From a virus, in the IMG/VR virus record IMGVR_UViG_3300024982_000001, positions 1-53,823 of that record: a DNA stretch of 53,823 nucleotides. One strand, given 5' to 3'. The translations under genes were made by a program, and so were the position numbers. The notes beneath the pieces are model-generated. The model saw only the letters and a list, made by a program, of their open reading frames with translations, was not told the DNA's origin and did no database searches. Positions within the stretch are counted from its first letter, which is position 1, and each line of letters begins with the position of its first letter. Shown piece by piece: positions 1 through 53,823 of this stretch.

Positions 1-509
1 AGGCTTCCGAGGTCTAAATAGCCACCCACAGTTGGGTTGAATCCTTCTGGAATTGATGTTAGGCTTCCGAGGTCTAAATAGCCACCCACAGTTGGGTTGA
101 ATCCTTCTGGAATTGATGTTAGGCTTCGCAGGTATAAATAGCCACCCACAGTTGGGTTGAATCCTTCTGGAATTGATGTTAGGCTTCGCAGGTATAAATC
201 GCCACCCACAGTTGGGTTGAATCCTTCTGGAATTGATGTTAGGCTTCGCAGGTATAAATCGCCACCCACAGTTGGGTTGAATCCTTCTGGAATTGATGTT
301 AGGCTTCCGAGGTCTAAATAGCCACCCACAGTTGGGTTGAATCCTTCTGGAATTGATGTTAGGCTTCCGAGGTATAAATAGCCACCCACAGTTGGGTTGA
401 ATCCTTCTGGAATTGATGTTAGGCTTCCGAGGTATAAATCGCCACCCACAGTTGGGTTGAATCCTTCTGGAATTGATGTTAGGCTTCCGAGGTCTAAATA
501 GCCACCCAC
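1..509 (-). repeat. 60-bp tandem repeats (left part of the tract)
   Basis: Eight full 60-bp units start at 1, 61, 121, 181, 241, 301, 361 and 421, and a partial one starts at 481. All units are identical except at four bases: an adjacent CG/GC swap at unit bases 8-9, C/A at base 14 and A/C at base 20. On the minus strand these fall in the codons for Gly/Arg, Asp/Tyr and Tyr/Asp next to the LRR leucines; the swap also changes the preceding Leu codon silently. The tract continues at 53691-53823. Confidence 0.97.
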
Positions 510-581
510 TTTTTCTACGCCAGTAAACTGTGCTTCGCTTAAGTTATATTTTTCGCAAAATTCTTTTTTTGATAGTTTCAT
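1..581 (-). CDS. Leucine-rich-repeat-like phage protein, N-terminal part (runs off the left edge)
   Basis: The gene starts at an ATG at 581, 19 bases after the stop of the upstream MBL gene, with an N-terminus reading MKLSKKEFCEKYNLSEAQF. From about residue 25 it is a run of 20-residue repeats of the form VGGxLxLxSLTSIPEGFNPT, which fits the LxLxxL...IP pattern of leucine-rich repeats. It has no stop before the window edge and is in frame with the segment at 53195-53823 once the 76-bp terminal overlap is merged, giving about 377 residues. Similar LRR-like repeats with a conserved C-terminal domain occur in phages of Bacteroidota; their function is not known to me. The repeat number may be wrong because repeats of this kind collapse in assembly. 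Confidence 0.85.
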   Translation of the reverse strand, partial: MKLSKKEFCEKYNLSEAQFTGVEKVGGYLDLGSLTSIPEGFNPTVGGDLYLGSLTSIPEGFNPTVGGYLYLGSLTSIPEGFNPTVGGYLDLGSLTSIPEGFNPTVGGDLYLRSLTSIPEGFNPTVGGDLYLRSLTSIPEGFNPTVGGYLYLRSLTSIPEGFNPTVGGYLDLGSLTSIPEGFNPTVGGYLDLGS

Positions 582-600
582 TTGGTTAATTATTAGTTTA

Positions 601-1338
601 TTAAAAAGGTGTTTTATTAAAATCTATTGTCATTCCGCTGACAGCTGCGCAAACATTTTTTCCTGTCAATTCTGATACTTCTTTTACAAATTGTACTTCG
701 TTTGAATTGGTATCTGATAAGTGAATCAGAACAATATTGTTGACTTTTGACAAGTCATTTGCAGACAGCATATCCTTGCAGTTTTCCAAAGAGAAATGCG
801 ATTGCAGGATCCTGTTTCTCAAAAATTCCTTTGCGCTGTCAGGACCATACTTTCTGTCGATGATTGCCTTTGAAAAGTTCGCTTCAATGATGATGTTTGT
901 TAATCCAGGAAAGGTGTATTTACAATAGTAGGTGTCAGTAACAAAAAGTGTTTTTCCACATTCCGGGTGATCAATCAGAAAGCCTAAGCATGGAACGTCA
1001 TGCTTTACATCAAAAGGCATCACTTTAAATCCACCGATATGATGAACTTTTGTTGGCTGTAATACAATTGCATTGTGATGTACAAAAGTCTCTGTTGCCA
1101 ATAATGTTTCCTTTGAAGCAAATGTTTGAATTCCGGCATTCATTACATCCTTAATGGACTTTGCGTGGTCACCATGCGAATGTGTAACAATACAGCCAGC
1201 TACCTTTTCAAGATTGAAATCCAACGCCTTTTTGATATCGTTGAAGTTTACTCCGGCTTCAATCAACAACGCCTCATTCTCTGTTTCAAGAATGTAAGCG
1301 TTGCCAATGCTGCCTGTGGAAATTACTTTGAGTTTCAT
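601..1338 (-). CDS. MBL-fold metallo-hydrolase of the phage recombination cluster
   Basis: A 245-residue metallo-beta-lactamase-fold protein. The start chosen is the ATG at 1338, one base after the recT stop; the longer reading frame would overlap recT by about 60 bases. Residues 52-58 read THSHGDH, the HxHxDH metal motif, and further His/Asp candidates occur in KHDVPC and FVTDTYY. The N-terminus (STGSIGNAYIL) resembles the YycJ/RNase Z-like branch. It follows RecT and a Rad50-like ATPase in one operon, so a DNA nuclease role in recombination or end processing is a reasonable inference. No activity can be assigned from sequence alone. Confidence 0.85.
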   Translation of the reverse strand: MKLKVISTGSIGNAYILETENEALLIEAGVNFNDIKKALDFNLEKVAGCIVTHSHGDHAKSIKDVMNAGIQTFASKETLLATETFVHHNAIVLQPTKVHHIGGFKVMPFDVKHDVPCLGFLIDHPECGKTLFVTDTYYCKYTFPGLTNIIIEANFSKAIIDRKYGPDSAKEFLRNRILQSHFSLENCKDMLSANDLSKVNNIVLIHLSDTNSNEVQFVKEVSELTGKNVCAAVSGMTIDFNKTPF

Positions 1339-1339
1339 T

Positions 1340-2368
1340 TTAGAAACCTGGTTGAGCTTGTGGAACTTCTTCTTCGATAGTAGCAGTCGTTGCTTCAACA
1401 TTTGTGGTATTTGGTGTCTCCTCTTCTACTTCTTCAAAGGCGGTGTCTTCGGCGTTATCATTAAAATCAAGAGGTTCTTTATTAGCTTCTGCAATCACTT
1501 CATTTTGAATGATAGCATCTTTCATTTCGGTTTCTTTTTGGATTATGGCCAAGTAGTTATCATCAATTTTTTTACTGTCGATTGTGATTGCATTAAAAGC
1601 ATTTCTAGAGATAGTTTTCAATGCCATTTCTTCAAACCAGCCTTCAATTTTTTCTTTCTCACCTGTTTTTTTACCGCCTTTCCAAACATCTTTTTCTCCA
1701 CCCCAGAATTCAGCAGAAGCATAAGCGGGTTTTCTTTTTTCGATATCTTTTAATGAGAAAACTTTAAGTTTGTTTTTCTCTGGATTTTCAAAGATGTGGT
1801 ACCAAAATCCACCAACGACATCTCCGCGATTAAATTCGTCAGTAACTTCAAAAGTGTAGCTTTCAACAGGATTGTTTATGTCTTTTTTGAACTGCTTGAA
1901 TTTGTCAGTTGAGTAAACTAATTCTACAACAATGTCCATAGGAACTTCCAATCCGTATTTTTTAGCTTTCAATTCCATACCTCTGTATCCAATAACAAAT
2001 CCCATATCGTATTTGTTATTAGCGGTATTTTTATAAGGAATCATATTGATGTGGTTCGGCTGTGTTGGGTCAAGTTCTACACTTGAATAAGCAATCACAT
2101 CAACCGCTAATTTGGACATATTTACATTCTCCCAAGTAAGTGCCAATCCATCACGATACTCTTCTGATTTTGCCATTCTTTTCTTCTCGGCATCTTTCAG
2201 GGTTTGGTCAATTTTTATGAAGTAATTTTGGCAAAGCTTCTTTTGAAAAGGCGTTAAAGTTATCTCGCCATTGTTTGAAGAAAACTCTTTGATTACTGCG
2301 TTTGTGAAACGCTCACTTTGAGATTGTTTTACTTCTCCTACTGCTGTATTATTTTTATCTGCACTCAT
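1340..2368 (-). CDS. recT: RecT-family single-strand annealing protein
   Basis: A 342-residue RecT homologue. The core (about residues 60-270) has the RecT-like segment FVIGYRGMELKAKKYG and the following GGFWYHIFEN strand region. The last 60 residues are acidic and low complexity, typical of the disordered RecT tail. RecT proteins anneal complementary single strands during phage recombination and replication. The usual exonuclease partner RecE is not seen; the flanking genes instead encode a Rad50-like ATPase upstream and an MBL-fold hydrolase downstream. The operon is tight, with one base to the MBL gene. Confidence 0.92.
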   Translation of the reverse strand: MSADKNNTAVGEVKQSQSERFTNAVIKEFSSNNGEITLTPFQKKLCQNYFIKIDQTLKDAEKKRMAKSEEYRDGLALTWENVNMSKLAVDVIAYSSVELDPTQPNHINMIPYKNTANNKYDMGFVIGYRGMELKAKKYGLEVPMDIVVELVYSTDKFKQFKKDINNPVESYTFEVTDEFNRGDVVGGFWYHIFENPEKNKLKVFSLKDIEKRKPAYASAEFWGGEKDVWKGGKKTGEKEKIEGWFEEMALKTISRNAFNAITIDSKKIDDNYLAIIQKETEMKDAIIQNEVIAEANKEPLDFNDNAEDTAFEEVEEETPNTTNVEATTATIEEEVPQAQPGF

Positions 2369-2460: not shown

Positions 2461-4488
2461 TTAAGCAGCCAATTCTTTAGATTTAACCTCTAATTGCTTG
2501 TGCATTTCAGATACTACCAATCGAACCAATTGACTATCGGTTTCAATAAGCGTGTGCACGCTCTCAGCGTTGTCGATAAATATTGGTGCTTTAACTTGGT
2601 AGAATTCACAAAGCGTGTTTATGATATCAATTCCGGCATTCATTTTTGATGCAGTATTCAAATCAGTGTAAGGAACTCCGTTAACCATAGCCACGCAAGT
2701 TTCACGAAGTCCACCGTTAATTTGTTCCTCGAACATCTTGAAGTTTACCATTTTGAATTTGTCATTAATGGTAGCTTCCAAACGGTCAATTTTCTCTTTG
2801 ATGAAGTTTTCAATTGTGAATTGGATTTTTTCAACGTCAACAATTTGTTGAGCCAATGTGCTTTCCTCTTTCTTCAATTCTGCGATACGATTATCACAGC
2901 TGTCGATTTGAGTTTTAAGATTTAACGAACCTTTGATATTGTCGATTTTATCAACTAATTCTTTTCTTTTGGTAACTAATTCGGTGTTGTCTACCGTTGG
3001 AACCTCAACCAATTGACCTTTCAAAGTTTCCAATTTCTCTTTTTTGGTTTTGTAAGTTGGATGCAAGGAAAGAACGCTTTCGTAAACCAATTCCTCTGAC
3101 GGCAAATCGGTAGCAGAAACATTGTTTAAACTTGCGATTTCGGATTTTATACGCTCAATCTCTTGGTTAGCCTCATTCATAGAGGTGTTACCATTGTTTA
3201 TTCTGGTAACAAGTCCGTCAACTTCATTTTGAAGATTTTCTTTTTCATCCGACCAGGCTTTGCCTTGCGTTGTGATGGCGGTAAGCGTTTTGTTTTTGTT
3301 AGCTTTGAAAGTTGCAATTGCTTCTTCTTTTTTAGCCTCTACATCACCTGCAGGTAAATCCTGTTTACAAGTTGGACATTGACAATCGCCATCGTTGAAA
3401 GTAAGTTCTTTGGCATTTTCAACTCCCCATTCATCACGTTTGGCTTGAATTTTTACATCAAGTGCTTTGATTTCAGCCTCAAGGGATGTTTTCTTTCCGG
3501 TTAACGTTTGAACAGCGTTTTGATATGACTTGTATTCATGGTCTTTTTCAGATAATGATTTTGTCAATGTATCTAAAGCCGAAGTATCTGGAGTTAATCT
3601 CGTTCTGGCTTCATTTCGAGCCTCAGTTTCGATGTTTTTGATTTCAATCTCAACATTATTGATGTTAATTCTTAAGCCTTTTTGAGCATCTAATTTTGAT
3701 TGAAATGCAGTGGAGGCATTTGCCAAATCACCATCAACTTTGTCAAGTTGTTTTTGGAATTCATCGCGTTCTTTCTCCAAAGCAGCGAAATCCTGTACCT
3801 CTGGTTTTTGGCGAGTTACTTCGTCGATACGTGTTGGAATTGCTTTTAAATCATCTTTGGCTTTTTTGATTGAAGCTGTGATTTGTGCTTTGTAATCCTC
3901 AAGGGTTTTGCCTTGGGTAAGATTAGCAAGTAAAGCTGTATAAGCAGGATTTCCGGCAGCGATTTCTTCATCGGATACTTCGCCTGCAATTGCAGTAAGG
4001 ATTGTTCTTTTCAACTTCCAATCTATCATATTGAAGTAGATAGGAGAGGTGATCATTTTGAAAAGCTGTTCATCCAAAATAGCATTTACCTTTTTGTTGA
4101 AATCGGTAACTAACATTGGAACATCATTCCAATAACATTCAGTAACATTCCCGGAGAATTCAGATTCAAGAGAACCTCTTTTCTTTACCCAATTCTCTTT
4201 AAGGATTCTTCGCATGGTAACAGTATCACCATCGATAGTATAGACAGCTGATACTTCGTGCTCAATCATCGGAATTACTTTTCCAGAAAAATCAAGAGTT
4301 TTGATTTCAAAATCTTTTCGGTCCAAACTATCTTTCCCGAACCATAGCCAATTTACTGCATCAGCAATTGTGGTTTTACCTGTTCCGTTGGCACCGTAGA
4401 TATCGGTTTCATTTTTAAAATCAATCTTTAGCGATTTGATGCCTTTGAAATTATTAAGAGATAAATTCTCAATTTCGATTTTTTTCAT
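2461..4488 (-). CDS. Rad50/SbcC-like coiled-coil ATPase
   Basis: A 675-residue SMC-like ATPase. The Walker A motif GANGTGKT lies at residues 32-39, long coiled-coil segments span about 200-360 and 380-580, and between them CPTC (371-374) is a zinc-hook motif. The C-terminal Walker B-like segment IFIDNAES (636-643) has Asn where Rad50 proteins usually have the catalytic Glu. Rad50/SbcC normally works with the Mre11/SbcD nuclease; no Mre11-like gene is visible, but recT and an MBL-fold hydrolase follow. I infer a DNA end-processing role together with those two proteins. Confidence 0.88.
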   Translation of the reverse strand: MKKIEIENLSLNNFKGIKSLKIDFKNETDIYGANGTGKTTIADAVNWLWFGKDSLDRKDFEIKTLDFSGKVIPMIEHEVSAVYTIDGDTVTMRRILKENWVKKRGSLESEFSGNVTECYWNDVPMLVTDFNKKVNAILDEQLFKMITSPIYFNMIDWKLKRTILTAIAGEVSDEEIAAGNPAYTALLANLTQGKTLEDYKAQITASIKKAKDDLKAIPTRIDEVTRQKPEVQDFAALEKERDEFQKQLDKVDGDLANASTAFQSKLDAQKGLRININNVEIEIKNIETEARNEARTRLTPDTSALDTLTKSLSEKDHEYKSYQNAVQTLTGKKTSLEAEIKALDVKIQAKRDEWGVENAKELTFNDGDCQCPTCKQDLPAGDVEAKKEEAIATFKANKNKTLTAITTQGKAWSDEKENLQNEVDGLVTRINNGNTSMNEANQEIERIKSEIASLNNVSATDLPSEELVYESVLSLHPTYKTKKEKLETLKGQLVEVPTVDNTELVTKRKELVDKIDNIKGSLNLKTQIDSCDNRIAELKKEESTLAQQIVDVEKIQFTIENFIKEKIDRLEATINDKFKMVNFKMFEEQINGGLRETCVAMVNGVPYTDLNTASKMNAGIDIINTLCEFYQVKAPIFIDNAESVHTLIETDSQLVRLVVSEMHKQLEVKSKELAA

Positions 4489-7774: not shown

Positions 7775-9031
7775 ATGAAAAAAACATTCAACAGCTGCAC
7801 TCGAACAGAATTATGGGCTTCTCCGCCTGACTGGGAAACAACCACTTCAAAAGCATCTTTAAAGAAAATTTGGTCCGTCCAATGTGACTTCTATGACCCT
7901 AGTTTCAAAAAAAAGTATCCAAGGGGATTTCCCTATCGTAAAAAGTTCAACAAACAAACAACTGTCGAAGGAAGGAGAGCTGTCATTAAGTTGATGCTGT
8001 CCGAAATTCAGAAACTACTTGACGATAAAGGTTACAATCCAATTACAAAGAAATTCATGGCTCCGGAAGTTAAACCGTTGACGGGATCGTTACATCAGAA
8101 ACTCAATTTTATTGAGGCGCTGCGGATAAACTATTTGACCTTGACATGTTCTCCTGGTGTTAAAAGAGAAATGAAGCGCATTATCCGAAAAGTTGAAACC
8201 TCAGCTGTCGAATTAAAGATTGAATTTACAATCTTTGAAATGCATAGTGGCCATGTTCGTGATTTATTGGATAACCTCAACTTAACGCCAAACGAATACA
8301 ACAAGTATCTAACTCATTTATCAATTATCCTTTCCGATTTGGTAGAAAAGCGCATGTTGTTTCACAATCCTATTCGAGATATCAAGAAGAAAAAGACAAC
8401 CAAAAAACTGCGGGAAACTCTCGAAATCTCGGAACTTCAACAAATATTTGATTACTTGAAAGTCAATCATTATTCGTTTTATAGATACGGAATGATTTTC
8501 TTTCATTCAGGATCCAGGAGCTCCGAACTTTTCAGACTGCAGGAGAAAGATGTAAATCTTGGAAAGCAGGAATACAAATTGACAATAAGAAAAGGCAGCT
8601 ACTATAAAGAAGTATTGAAGCCGATTTTGTTGAATGTCATTCCTTATTGGACCGAGATACTTGCTTTAAGCAATAATCCAACAGATTATTTGTTTACTCG
8701 TGGATTGGCGCCATCGGAAACACCAACACAACCATATCAAATTACAAAACGATGGAAGCGATTAATAAAAGACAAAATGTGCTTCAAGGATGGTGAGTTG
8801 ATTGAGATTAAAAGCCTGGAGAAAGGCGATAAGAATTTCGAGAGAATCACCGCCGATTTTTACAGCTTGAAACATTTATTCCTTGATGAATTAGATAAGT
8901 TTTCAAGTCTTGCTGGTACCATTGCCGGACATACTACTGATGTGACTGAAAGAGTTTATTTAATTGGTAGGGAAGGACGTAAGAATGAAGCTTTGAAGAA
9001 TATTCAAATCAATGTTCTAACCTCAGCATAA
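7775..9031 (+). CDS. int: Tyrosine-recombinase integrase
   Basis: A 418-residue site-specific recombinase. A core-binding region spans about residues 105-205 and the catalytic domain about 210-400. Visible active-site positions are R248 (SGSRSSEL), a beta-hairpin Lys in TIRKGSYYKE, H386 (AGHTT) and the nucleophile Y395 (ERVY). The usual HxxR box reads YSLK (Y363, K366), so both the His and the second Arg are replaced; I have the impression that YSxKH variants are common in integrases of Bacteroidota. It lies next to attP, as expected. Confidence 0.93.
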   Translation: MKKTFNSCTRTELWASPPDWETTTSKASLKKIWSVQCDFYDPSFKKKYPRGFPYRKKFNKQTTVEGRRAVIKLMLSEIQKLLDDKGYNPITKKFMAPEVKPLTGSLHQKLNFIEALRINYLTLTCSPGVKREMKRIIRKVETSAVELKIEFTIFEMHSGHVRDLLDNLNLTPNEYNKYLTHLSIILSDLVEKRMLFHNPIRDIKKKKTTKKLRETLEISELQQIFDYLKVNHYSFYRYGMIFFHSGSRSSELFRLQEKDVNLGKQEYKLTIRKGSYYKEVLKPILLNVIPYWTEILALSNNPTDYLFTRGLAPSETPTQPYQITKRWKRLIKDKMCFKDGELIEIKSLEKGDKNFERITADFYSLKHLFLDELDKFSSLAGTIAGHTTDVTERVYLIGREGRKNEALKNIQINVLTSA

Positions 9032-13022: not shown

Positions 13023-15458
13023 TTAAAACTTAATCACGGTTTTCATAAAATCAATTCCGAAAATAGTTGCATTAGCATTATTGTTGACAGCTCCTTTAAT
13101 TGTAAAAAGTTGGTCAAGTGCAGGGATGTCCGTTGAAATAGTTCTAGTATCACTATAAGCTGTTCCTTTTCTATAAACCGTAAGTGTGCAACTGCTACTT
13201 GAAATTGGAGTTATTTTAATTTTATATACTTCGCCACTATCTACGTTTACAGGGAAATTGGAACCCAAATCAACGGTTGTAGCGGTGCCACTTGCATCAT
13301 TATAAATAACTTGTAAATTATTTGAACCAGATAATCTACATACACCAATAAGATTAGTAAGTGTGTTATATTCTATATTGCTTGTTAATGAGGAAACATC
13401 TGTAAATATTCCTATTATAAATCGTTGTCCCGATGTAGATGACCCTTCGGCTGTACCAAAAGATTGTTCAAAAGAAACTATTGAGCTTGGAATAAAAAGA
13501 CCAGTTGAAATCCTATAATTGTTGACATTACCGGCAGAAGAAGTTGTAAGCATTCCATATCTAGGAGTAGCTGTGTAAGCGTTGGTATTTGTCAAAGTTC
13601 TTGCAGTTCCCGTGCCTACACTTACTGCGGATTGATGCCCGATAACACTTATTGTATTACCTCCAGCAGCCCAAATCATTTCGTGATGGAAAGTATCGAA
13701 AAAGTTATTGGAATCTATTTGTAATTGTACATTACTTGTAATTCCTTTTGTATATGCCAATTCAGTAAGACTTGGATAAGTTGCTATATCGGCACTTTTT
13801 ACGTTGTTCGAAGCATCAATTATAGCAACCCTAGAAGCTGTTTCACTTGAAACAATTATAGCTGGTGTTGTAACCGTTCCTGTAAACGTAGGTCCAGCTA
13901 AATTTGCTTTTAAATCCAATCCTGTATTAACCGCCGTTGCACTTGGAGCAATAGTTGTACTTGCACTTAAACTGTTTTGCACTTTGGCATCAGCATAAGC
14001 TGTAGTAGCTATTTTAGTAGTGTTATCGTTGGCGCTTTGTGTTGGTGCGTTTGGCGTTCCTGTGAATGTTGGAGAAGCCAAATTTGCTTTCAACAAATCT
14101 GCTGTGTCAACGTATGCTGTTGATGCTGCTTTTGTGCTGTTGTCACTAGCCGATTGAGTTCCTACTACTGGATTAGATAAGGTCGGTGATGTTCCGAATA
14201 CTAAAACACCTGTTCCTGTTTCATTGCTAATAGTCGATGCTAATTGAGCAGATGTTGTTGAAGCATTATTTTGGTCTATTCTATTGGCTACTTTTCCAAG
14301 TAATGCCTCAAATGTTGAACTTATATCAATAGCAGGTGTTGTTCCCCCAGTCGATGTAATTCGATTTGTAGTACCTAAAACATCTGTTACCGTCCCAAAT
14401 CCTGATAAGTCTGATAATAAGGCAACCGTTCCATCGTTATCGGGTAATTCCCATTTCCTATCTGCTGTTATATTTTTATAAGACAATCTCGCTTGAAAAA
14501 CATCTGGATAAACATATTTTGAAAAAACTGTTTGAAAATCATCATCTGCTATTGTACTATTTCCAAATAGATTTACATAACTATGAGTATTTAGATTTCC
14601 AGCAGCACTTCCAAAAGCATTAACATCACTTCCAGTATTTGTAAATGCCGATGTATTTCCAAAAGCATTAACATTAATTCCTGTGTTGTAACTACCAGCA
14701 TTAGAACCAAAAGCATTTAAACTTTCTCCGCTATTATTAGTTGCTGCTGACGAACCAAAAGCATTTACCTCATTTCCAGAATCAGATGTTCCTGCACCAG
14801 AACCTTGATGATTTCTGCCGTTTGATAAATTATTATTATTATCTAATACTTGTTGTAAGGTTGGAACTCCACTCAATGCTAATTCCCAAACAGCACTTCC
14901 TGTTGTTGCATCTGTACATTTGTAAACATCTCCAGTAACTAAATTTTTATATGTGGAGCCAACTGCCCATCCTGCAACATCATCATAAGAAGCATCGGGG
15001 ACAACATCATCCATTGTTTCTGCATAGACATTAGTTCCGCCAACAGGACGAAGATACCTTACTCCATTCTCCCATTGGTCTTCTTTATCGGCTACACAAA
15101 CTCTTGAAATACCACCGCCAAAACCATTGTTTACAGTGCCTTTTTTGAGTTTAGCTCCGTTGTCTAGAACTATAGCATCGCCATTTGAAATAATTATATT
15201 TTCACCGTCGGTTTCGTTACCATTCGCTAAAGTTTGTGTTAGTGTTTGAGAACTTCCCCCACCTACAGCATCAACAATAGCTGTAACAAAATCTGACCAA
15301 GCTATCTTACTGGTAATACCGGTAGTGGTATTTCTAACCATAACGTCAGGAGTTCCAGTTGCAGTTGGTACATTAACAATCTTTTGTGGTCCAGAAACCG
15401 TTTGCGCTTTTCCTATAAATGCTACTAATAAAACTAAAAGGCTAAATAATTTTTTCAT
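13023..15458 (-). CDS. Tail-fibre or adhesin protein with Sec signal and YadA-like repeats
   Basis: An 811-residue protein. Residues 1-18 are a typical Sec signal (MKKLFSLLVLLVAFIGKAQT). Around residues 225-310 several VNAFGSxA repeats of about 15-17 residues resemble the left-handed beta-roll of YadA heads. The middle has repeats typical of phage fibres (PTFTGTP, QSANDNTTKIATTAY). The C-terminal 200 residues look like a beta-rich receptor-binding domain. It follows the baseplate-like gene at 15469 in the second late unit. The Sec signal is odd for a virion fibre. Confidence 0.75.
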   Translation of the reverse strand: MKKLFSLLVLLVAFIGKAQTVSGPQKIVNVPTATGTPDVMVRNTTTGITSKIAWSDFVTAIVDAVGGGSSQTLTQTLANGNETDGENIIISNGDAIVLDNGAKLKKGTVNNGFGGGISRVCVADKEDQWENGVRYLRPVGGTNVYAETMDDVVPDASYDDVAGWAVGSTYKNLVTGDVYKCTDATTGSAVWELALSGVPTLQQVLDNNNNLSNGRNHQGSGAGTSDSGNEVNAFGSSAATNNSGESLNAFGSNAGSYNTGINVNAFGNTSAFTNTGSDVNAFGSAAGNLNTHSYVNLFGNSTIADDDFQTVFSKYVYPDVFQARLSYKNITADRKWELPDNDGTVALLSDLSGFGTVTDVLGTTNRITSTGGTTPAIDISSTFEALLGKVANRIDQNNASTTSAQLASTISNETGTGVLVFGTSPTLSNPVVGTQSASDNSTKAASTAYVDTADLLKANLASPTFTGTPNAPTQSANDNTTKIATTAYADAKVQNSLSASTTIAPSATAVNTGLDLKANLAGPTFTGTVTTPAIIVSSETASRVAIIDASNNVKSADIATYPSLTELAYTKGITSNVQLQIDSNNFFDTFHHEMIWAAGGNTISVIGHQSAVSVGTGTARTLTNTNAYTATPRYGMLTTSSAGNVNNYRISTGLFIPSSIVSFEQSFGTAEGSSTSGQRFIIGIFTDVSSLTSNIEYNTLTNLIGVCRLSGSNNLQVIYNDASGTATTVDLGSNFPVNVDSGEVYKIKITPISSSSCTLTVYRKGTAYSDTRTISTDIPALDQLFTIKGAVNNNANATIFGIDFMKTVIKF

Positions 15459-52244: not shown

Positions 52245-52562
52245 TTAATTTGGATTAGTGTTTATAAAATATTCTTTGTAATTCCCTTTTATTGTTTCTT
52301 TGTCTACATGAACACCATAGATATCTATCAAATCTTTCACACGTCGTCGTAAATCGCCAATTCCGTATTGGAGTAAGGCTTTCGTAGTTGTGAGCCTTTC
52401 GCCCCGCATAAACGCCCTATAAACGATTTTGCATTGTTCTGTGAAATGCTCAATATTCCCATCAAAAATTGCCTGGCTTTCTGCATTGTTTTCGTGATGA
52501 ATAAGTGGCTGTTTAAAATCAACCGGCATATTGAAATCGATAGTTGTTTGTGAAGTGTTCAT
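52245..52562 (-). CDS. Early protein with N-terminal clamp-binding-like motif and possible winged helix
   Basis: A 105-residue protein. Residues 5-10 are QTTIDF, a clamp-binding-like motif in a flexible N-terminus. The C-terminal part (GERLTTTKALLQYGIGDLRR, then RVKDLIDIYGVHVDKETIKG) reads like a winged-helix DNA-binding domain. It overlaps the NinB-like gene by 4 bases. Confidence 0.6.
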   Translation of the reverse strand: MNTSQTTIDFNMPVDFKQPLIHHENNAESQAIFDGNIEHFTEQCKIVYRAFMRGERLTTTKALLQYGIGDLRRRVKDLIDIYGVHVDKETIKGNYKEYFINTNPN

Positions 52563-53008
52563 ACAAATTCTTGATTTTGATGTTTACTTATTTCGTTTTC
52601 TAATTGCTGTATCAATACTAAATCTGTTGGTTCTGGAAGGTATATTCCGCATTCCTGACTTGAAAAGTTCCTGAACCTACTTATGGCCAATGTCATTTCT
52701 GCTTTATCCAATGAAGCAGAACTTCTCCATCTTTCTATCCTTACCCCCGGTATCTTATTTTCAACTTCTCCATCATAAAAAAGAGTTGGATTAACGTGCT
52801 TTTTGAATATGTCAAGCTTCACTTCTGGCATTGTTAATCCAACTTCTAATCCGAACCACGTTAATATCAAGTGCATGTAGCTATTTTGAGCTATTGAGCG
52901 TCTAGGATGTTTGACCTTTAATTCAACTCTTTTCCCGTTTTTGATATAGTATTTAACCTTTTCAATGAATTGGTTTCTTTCTAATGGATTGTCGGTGCTG
53001 AAAATCAT
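52559..53008 (-). CDS. NinB-like recombination protein
   Basis: A 149-residue protein. RSIAQNSYMHLILTWFGLEV and MTLAISRFRNFSSQECGIYL follow the pattern of NinB/YbcN-type proteins, which bind single-stranded DNA in lambda-like phages. It starts the right end of the early gene set together with small genes. The assignment is by visible motifs only. Confidence 0.72.
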   Translation of the reverse strand: MIFSTDNPLERNQFIEKVKYYIKNGKRVELKVKHPRRSIAQNSYMHLILTWFGLEVGLTMPEVKLDIFKKHVNPTLFYDGEVENKIPGVRIERWRSSASLDKAEMTLAISRFRNFSSQECGIYLPEPTDLVLIQQLENEISKHQNQEFV

Positions 53009-53194: not shown

Positions 53195-53823
53195 CTAGAA
53201 CTTTACTAGCTTTTTAAACCTATCAATACCATAAGCATTAGATTTCACAAGAATTGGAAGCAGTTCTTTAGCTTTAATTCCTTTTTCTATAATAATTGCT
53301 CTTTCCTTCTCATTGAATTGGCTTTGCATCCAAGAATTTACTCCTAATTCACAAGCGCCAGTCAACAATCTATAATGCTTGATTGTAATAATTGTGTCTT
53401 CTAAAATTGGTTCGCTTTTCAGTTTTTCAGCAATAAGTTTAAATCTGAAATCCTCTTTTGCTTTTTGAAGAGTTTCTCCGTGAGCGTGAGTTTTGCCGTC
53501 AGTAACTAAGTAGAATTCCTTGGTAGAATGCACTTTTCTAACCTTGTAAACATTGCCTTTTTTACTCAAGACTTCTGTAAACATTCTGTCGGCACTTACA
53601 TATTTTCCGTCTTGCCAAAACAAAAGTTTGTTTTTAGGAGTGTTTAAAAACGCATCGGCTTTTGGCTTCGTTGTTTTTGCAGTAAGTCCGCTTCGCAGGT
53701 CTAAATAGCCACCCACAGTTGGGTTGAATCCTTCTGGAATTGATGTTAGGCTTCCGAGGTCTAAATAGCCACCCACAGTTGGGTTGAATCCTTCTGGAAT
53801 TGATGTTAGGCTTCCGAGGTCTA
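53195..53823 (-). CDS. Leucine-rich-repeat-like phage protein, C-terminal part (runs off the right edge)
   Basis: This is the continuation of the gene starting at 581. After two repeat units, of which one duplicates unit 1, the last unit reads GGYLDLRSGLTAK and the chain leaves the repeat. The C-terminal 150 residues form a separate domain (KLLFWQDGKYVSADRMFTEV, GNVYKVRKVHSTKEFYLVTD, then TGACELGVNSWMQSQ) that accompanies such repeats in phages of Bacteroidota. It ends at 53195. Function unknown. Confidence 0.85.
   Translation of the reverse strand, partial: DLGSLTSIPEGFNPTVGGYLDLGSLTSIPEGFNPTVGGYLDLRSGLTAKTTKPKADAFLNTPKNKLLFWQDGKYVSADRMFTEVLSKKGNVYKVRKVHSTKEFYLVTDGKTHAHGETLQKAKEDFRFKLIAEKLKSEPILEDTIITIKHYRLLTGACELGVNSWMQSQFNEKERAIIIEKGIKAKELLPILVKSNAYGIDRFKKLVKF
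53691..53823 (-). repeat. 60-bp tandem repeats (right part of the tract)
   Basis: One unit with the CGCA variant begins at 53691, a full unit lies at 53748-53807 and 16 bases of a further one follow to the edge. Bases 53748-53823 equal bases 1-76, so this is the overlap of a circular or terminally repeated sequence. Confidence 0.95.

Follow-up and report, generated by a model that had tools for sequence, protein, structure and literature searches.

Near-identical beta-solenoid repeat arrays with variation concentrated at exposed codons in a phage gene family

Background

TAL effector arrays are built of near-identical helical repeats that read DNA, with specificity held in a variable residue pair, and recombination shuffles the arrays. 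The WD40 sensors of the fungal NLRs het-d and het-e (Podospora anserina) consist of near-identical repeats that evolve in concert and carry hypervariable sites under diversifying selection; repeat number differs between alleles, and short-read reconstruction fails (PMC12222747, PMC4986451).

Here we analyse a phage gene carried by a 53,823-bp virus record (the window, meaning the whole stretch of DNA that was analysed). The gene resembles het-d/het-e WD40 in its concerted evolution, its few hypervariable sites, its changes of repeat number and its failure in short-read assembly. It differs from fungal NLRs in using leucine-rich repeats (LRRs) and, across the family, other beta-solenoids in place of WD40, in lacking the NLR ATPase, and in that a single C-terminal domain is common to many scaffold types. 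A NACHT/NB-ARC ATPase was not found in P0001, P0002 or the C-terminal domains of relatives. By analogy, the phage family is one that would work like the het-d/het-e WD40 sensors, and is not a member of them.

With TAL effectors the gene shares near-identical repeats with few variable residues, whereas its units form beta-solenoid strands and a one-unit-one-letter code is not apparent. The 20-residue LRR domains of the SspH1/IpaH/YopM type are alike in repeat length and in the xLxLxx...LxxIP pattern, with a match to SspH1 at E about 5e-6, but the phage gene is unlike them in its near-identical unit DNA, its place in a phage early module, its other C-terminal domain and its lack of an E3-ligase domain: the E3 ubiquitin-ligase domain of SspH/IpaH effectors was not found, and the C-terminal domain had no Pfam or PDB match. 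Phage diversity-generating retroelements likewise place diversity on exposed ligand-face codons; unlike them, the window genome has no reverse transcriptase, the changes show no adenine bias and the units are tandem. PADLOC models for known anti-phage defence proteins gave no match, and nothing relevant on phage LRR arrays was found in the literature searched, a scope short of most subscription papers and preprints.

Results

The repeat gene is a single minus-strand ORF that spans the ends at which the circular contig was linearised (581..1 + 53823..53195), and it appears in two pieces because those ends sit within its 60-bp array. The first 76 bases of the window equal its last 76 bases, and the joined product is intact at about 373 aa, comprising an N-cap, ten x1-L-x2-L-x3 triplets and a 162-aa C-terminal domain. 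The gene and its neighbours are laid out as follows.

1..581, minus strand: 5' portion of the repeat gene with the N-cap and triplets one to nine; starts with ATG at 581, runs over the contig end; AF2 mean pLDDT 94.5
53195..53823, minus strand: 3' portion of the repeat gene with the final triplets and the C-terminal domain; ends in a stop codon at 53195; joined via the 76-bp end overlap
507..581, minus strand: N-cap MKLSKKEFCEKYNLSEAQFTGVEKV, modelled as two short helices, kept in relatives
1..509, minus strand: 60-bp repeat array, 8.5 copies, 97% matches; variable codons x1, x2 and x3 of x1-L-x2-L-x3
53690..53823, minus strand: remaining array at the opposite contig end, 2.2 copies
1..76, no strand: end overlap, matches 53748-53823 exactly
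53748..53823, no strand: end overlap, matches 1-76 exactly
53195..53683, minus strand: C-terminal domain, 162 aa, near-invariant D, H, K, YR..TGAC..G; AF2 mean pLDDT 91.5
601..1401, minus strand: metallo-beta-lactamase-fold hydrolase (phrog_392), neighbour
1340..2368, minus strand: RecT-family annealing protein, neighbour
2461..4488, minus strand: SbcC-like ATPase, neighbour
52559..53008, minus strand: NinB/Orf recombination mediator, neighbour

The window array has 97% matches and zero indels (Tandem Repeats Finder). Read on the minus strand, only four of the 60 bases of its unit vary, and they alter three residues alone, as the first-pass annotation had described; the triplets also follow the order that it gave (YDG, DYG, YYG, YDG, DYR, DYR, YYR, YDG, YDG, YDR). 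Its count of ten 60-bp units stands for the triplets (n = 10) and needs correcting for the units themselves: only nine 20-residue LRR SLTSIPEGFNPTVGG linkers are complete, the first and last triplets lie on partial units, and ten is a lower bound. The same annotation was mistaken in holding that the Gly/Arg change needs two base changes, since GGA to CGA is one base; the base next to it changes silently (CTC to CTG in the preceding Leu codon) and is coupled to GGA/CGA. A weaker 48-bp repeat (2.2 copies, 78%) lies elsewhere in the window, at 14611-14717, within an 811-aa ORF (13023-15458).

Structure prediction, which had been proposed as a check, modelled an LRR solenoid for the 5' part (AF2 mean pLDDT 94.5, and 91.5 for the C-terminal domain), with short strands recurring at 20-residue intervals, including one at L-x2. 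A solenoid with an xLxL-bearing strand, the mark of the leucine-rich repeat superfamily, was recovered by AF2, by Foldseek (8z5u chain 0, E 7.6e-4; SspH1 weakly) and by phmmer (SspH1, E 4.9e-6). Pfam LRR families gave no match at E <= 1 for the 5' part (P0001), which is a limit of the models and not of the fold. Because x1, x2 and x3 alternate with the inward-facing leucines, they would share one outer face, a placement inferred from the sequence pattern.

To collect relatives, we used a repeat-peptide search, which gave 61 loci, and a C-terminal-domain search independent of the repeat, which yielded 80 loci from viruses and 35 from bacteria or MAGs. The codon analysis covered 18 distinct arrays of the window's repeat type with units at least 92% identical. 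Across these arrays, 49 of 54 x1–x3 codon columns were replacement-variable and 0 of 54 synonymous, as against 17 replacement and 26 synonymous among 306 other columns. With arrays treated as independent, Fisher p = 6e-40 for replacement-variable columns versus not, x1–x3 against the rest, and, on the same treatment, p = 7e-12 for replacement versus synonymous columns. Variation is concentrated at the exposed codons far beyond chance. Pairs of units differed by a replacement at x1 in 51%, at x2 in 51% and at x3 in 52% of comparisons, and never by a synonymous difference. The residue alphabet at these positions is narrow and polar or aromatic (mainly Tyr, Asp, Ser, Asn, Gly and Arg). Rather than being spread evenly over the unit in homologues, the pattern against which the first-pass annotation had set its proposal, variation clusters at these codons.

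The consensus codons for the shared peptide LTSIPEGFNPTVGG differ from phage to phage. Since the repeat peptide is common to phages whose codons are unlike, the DNA is homogenised array by array, by concerted evolution, instead of being one shared sequence that stayed frozen. Near-identical DNA repeats, replacement-rich hypervariable sites and differences of number and order between alleles, the properties of repeats with high internal conservation, were all found. Six of the 18 arrays showed four-gamete violations between exposed codons 6-12 bases apart, which indicates within-unit recombination or recurrent change.

How much weight unit number and order can bear depends on assembly. The 76-bp overlap exceeds the 60-bp period by only 16 bases, so the unit count is not fixed by it, and the window's unit number and order are provisional. 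L058, a second assembly of the window's phage (100% identical over 3132 bp, with a 3.9-kb terminase stretch also identical), likewise stops in the array and is therefore uninformative on unit order. Contigs break in these arrays generally: among the 80 viral loci anchored on the C-terminal domain, a contig end lay within 1 kb on the array side in 44 and on the other side in 5, and seven viral contigs including the window have both ends inside the array (the others, as locus pairs, are L020/L030, L034/L041, L039/L057, L047/L048, L050/L053 and L062/L063). Such breaks are what would be expected if strain mixing in short reads had made the array and its combinations. The same pattern is nevertheless present in complete E. 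coli chromosomes, in the isolate phage Edno5 and in the pure-culture genome Arachidicoccus L085, though the L085 contig also ends in the array. An assembly artefact is extremely improbable, and the array pattern itself is not in doubt because complete chromosomes carry it.

Arrays have turned over beside unchanged flanks. In the E. coli prophages ET791 and ET846, the 431 bp downstream, C-terminal part included, are 100% identical and the 979 bp upstream are 95.7% identical, and the arrays differ in number and order. ET846 holds an exact six-unit block twice, and its x3 codon changes between CGC and GAA, a three-base difference between units whose flanking bases all match. L147 and L148 come from different metagenomes and have 3 mismatches in 4723 bp, all of them in x1 (GAC/AGC) and x3 (TCC/TAC) of one unit, the variant unit of L148 lying at the contig end, the least reliable region of an assembly. 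L116 and L117 are 97.6% identical over 1957 bp and have unlike arrays; Edno5 has seven units and Edwardsiella phage GF-2 one, with an N-terminal peptide common to both. Phages therefore do not share one fixed array, the outcome that would have told against the first-pass proposal, and the array differences together with the uneven variation lend good support to its idea of recent repeat shuffling with selection on one exposed face. Arrays are identical between the independent sequences L197/L198 (LHM10-1 and CP52E) and L010/L023, so turnover is neither constant nor universal.

In several phage contigs the gene is present two or three times (L024/L032, L017/L146, L025, L075, L010/L038); the arrays differ between the copies, which often lie near one another. 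In the E. coli prophages L197, L199 and L200, the backbone DNA of the units is almost base-identical and the flanks are only about 91-96% identical, hinting that units may have been exchanged between phages.

A dedicated targeted-mutation system, a diversity-generating retroelement or something similar, could in principle write the exposed codons. The variation is indeed codon-targeted, and two reports describe such elements in Bacteroides and crAss-like phages (PMC6199706, PMC7290462). The window genome, however, has no reverse transcriptase (RVT_1 searched), the changes are not adenine-specific (T/G, C/A, GAC/AGC, TCC/TAC), and the targets are many tandem units instead of a single variable region. 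This origin is highly improbable, and we rejected a retroelement on the missing reverse transcriptase and the lack of adenine bias.

At least eight repeat classes precede the same C-terminal domain. The LRR scaffolds are LTSIPEGFNPTVGGxLxLx, GTxITSLPDNLTVGGxLxL and 21-22-residue LRRs; the other scaffolds are BspA-like IGDxAF, SVGGxL, the 9-residue IGSSGxxAQ, the 8-residue CTIxAGxx and CTFxTGxx, and Gly-X. For nearly every class, replacement differences within arrays fall mainly in a few columns. Scaffolds have been exchanged on this domain: a tree of 121 C-terminal domains, built on few columns, needs 28 class changes when classes are assigned by simple text matching, and L135 and L143 are 88% identical in C-terminal DNA and belong to different repeat classes. 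Lambdoid relatives (Edno5, E. coli) carry the same kind of LRR on a different C-terminal domain, so one common C-terminal function is putative.

The C-terminal domain matched no Pfam, PHROG or PDB sequence family, and a structure search gave no PDB match to its fold (best E 0.26); its matches in BFVD were uncharacterised or repeat-named phage proteins only. It was found in 5 of 393 genomes of one order. Scanning was seeded from a closer alignment, one of 24 sequences being too diverse as a seed.

Two deposited annotations bear on genes of this kind. Edwardsiella phage GF-2 ORF-55 (L201:2861-3907), annotated 'collagen-like', consists of 9-residue IGSSGxxA[RQ] repeats with two variable positions; it lies directly upstream of the LRR gene and is a relative of E. 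coli YdhT (E 4.5e-81 in NCBIfam, short of the cut-off there), and no blastn match to it was found in E. coli. For Tetrasphaera phage TJE1 (L192:4790-5597), the LRR part is absent from the deposited annotation, in which orf50 is on the opposite strand and orf51 covers the C-terminal part only.

The arrays could also be neutral minisatellites, homogenised by slippage and unequal crossing-over, with a scaffold maintained by purifying selection and exposed codons that vary for want of constraint. They do expand and contract, and scaffold positions are plainly constrained. Relaxed codons should nonetheless gain synonymous changes too, which appear in 26 of the 306 other columns and in 0 of 54 at x1–x3. 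Codon swaps of two or three bases within otherwise identical units, the narrow alphabet at x1–x3 (mainly Y, D, S, N, G and R) and the recurrence of the same variation rule on unrelated scaffolds likewise weigh against neutrality, which we consider unlikely.

In the window phage and in the isolate phages and prophages examined, the gene sits in a recombination and replication module. The window phage is temperate (integrase at 7775-9031). Its repeat gene has NinB/Orf as one neighbour and, in the opposite direction, the metallo-hydrolase and RecT; the terminase and tape-measure genes lie elsewhere. ERF, RecT or exonuclease genes are likewise found close to the gene in TJE1, Riemerella phage CRP6, Edno5, Dulem virus 31, EPV1 and the E. 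coli prophages. The matching stretch of the lambdoid early-left operon is known for genes of host takeover, among them gam, ral and kil. Among phage proteins, tail adhesins are the classic case of hypervariability, and an LRR fold could bind surface ligands, so a virion or surface adhesin varied to follow host receptors might be envisaged. Yet the repeat gene lies among RecT, SbcC-like and NinB/Orf genes, apart from the terminase and tape-measure genes; recombination or exonuclease genes adjoin it in the isolate phages and prophages read; and the N-terminus starts MKLSKKEFCEKYNL, with no hydrophobic signal visible. A receptor-binding role is very unlikely, and the tail adhesin was rejected on gene position.

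Recognisable RecT occurs in 15 of 49 viral contigs and ERF in 4 (19 of 49 in all), and in 15 of these 19 one or the other is, by coordinates, no more than about 5 kb away from the repeat gene. The phage's own RecT, which the first-pass annotation had suggested might help, is a possible driver of array shuffling, with many carriers having no recognisable RecT or ERF. An exact-DNA search of IMG/VR with the window's 60-bp unit gave no match, nor did a 19-kb part of the window when compared with phages by megablast. The Dulem virus 31 record (L196, PP511318.1) is 35.8 kb long and carries exonuclease and replisome-organiser genes; its placement in Microviridae looks like an error of taxonomy.

Discussion

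On balance, we lean towards a phage binding protein that acts early and in the cytoplasm and owes its diversity to repeat shuffling and selection, with ligand binding putative. Between its N-cap and C-terminal domain, the near-identical LRR solenoid would display three exposed residues per unit, stacked as a ladder. New combinations would arise within the array through unequal recombination and short-tract gene conversion, and selection for altered binding would keep the exposed codons diverse and the scaffold constant. The array may bind proteins of the host or of rival elements that it meets early in infection, for instance factors of defence or DNA repair, and the C-terminal domain may contribute a shared role, for example as an anchor, in oligomerisation or by inhibiting the bound protein. 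The first-pass idea of a modular binder fits this anatomy as a putative role, and from its genomic position the gene is a candidate for a phage inhibitor that acts on a host protein of defence or repair.

More tentatively, the wider set may be a repertoire-type recognition family, in which an undescribed C-terminal domain is joined to interchangeable beta-solenoids (LRRs of several types, BspA-like repeats, repeats of 8-9 residues and Gly-X repeats) that recombination keeps uniform and whose surface codons are diversified, yielding quickly re-targetable intracellular binders against host or rival-element proteins.

The array gene accounts for the breaking of many phage contigs at a single gene. 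The arrays would also constitute natural, putative libraries of modular binders, and they open a direct question: what they bind, and whether swapping units changes the target. Internally conserved hypervariable repeats are known from fungal self/non-self receptors, and the same signature is now found in phages of many bacterial phyla. Its occurrence on many scaffolds joined to one undescribed domain points to a common, overlooked arms race within infected cells.
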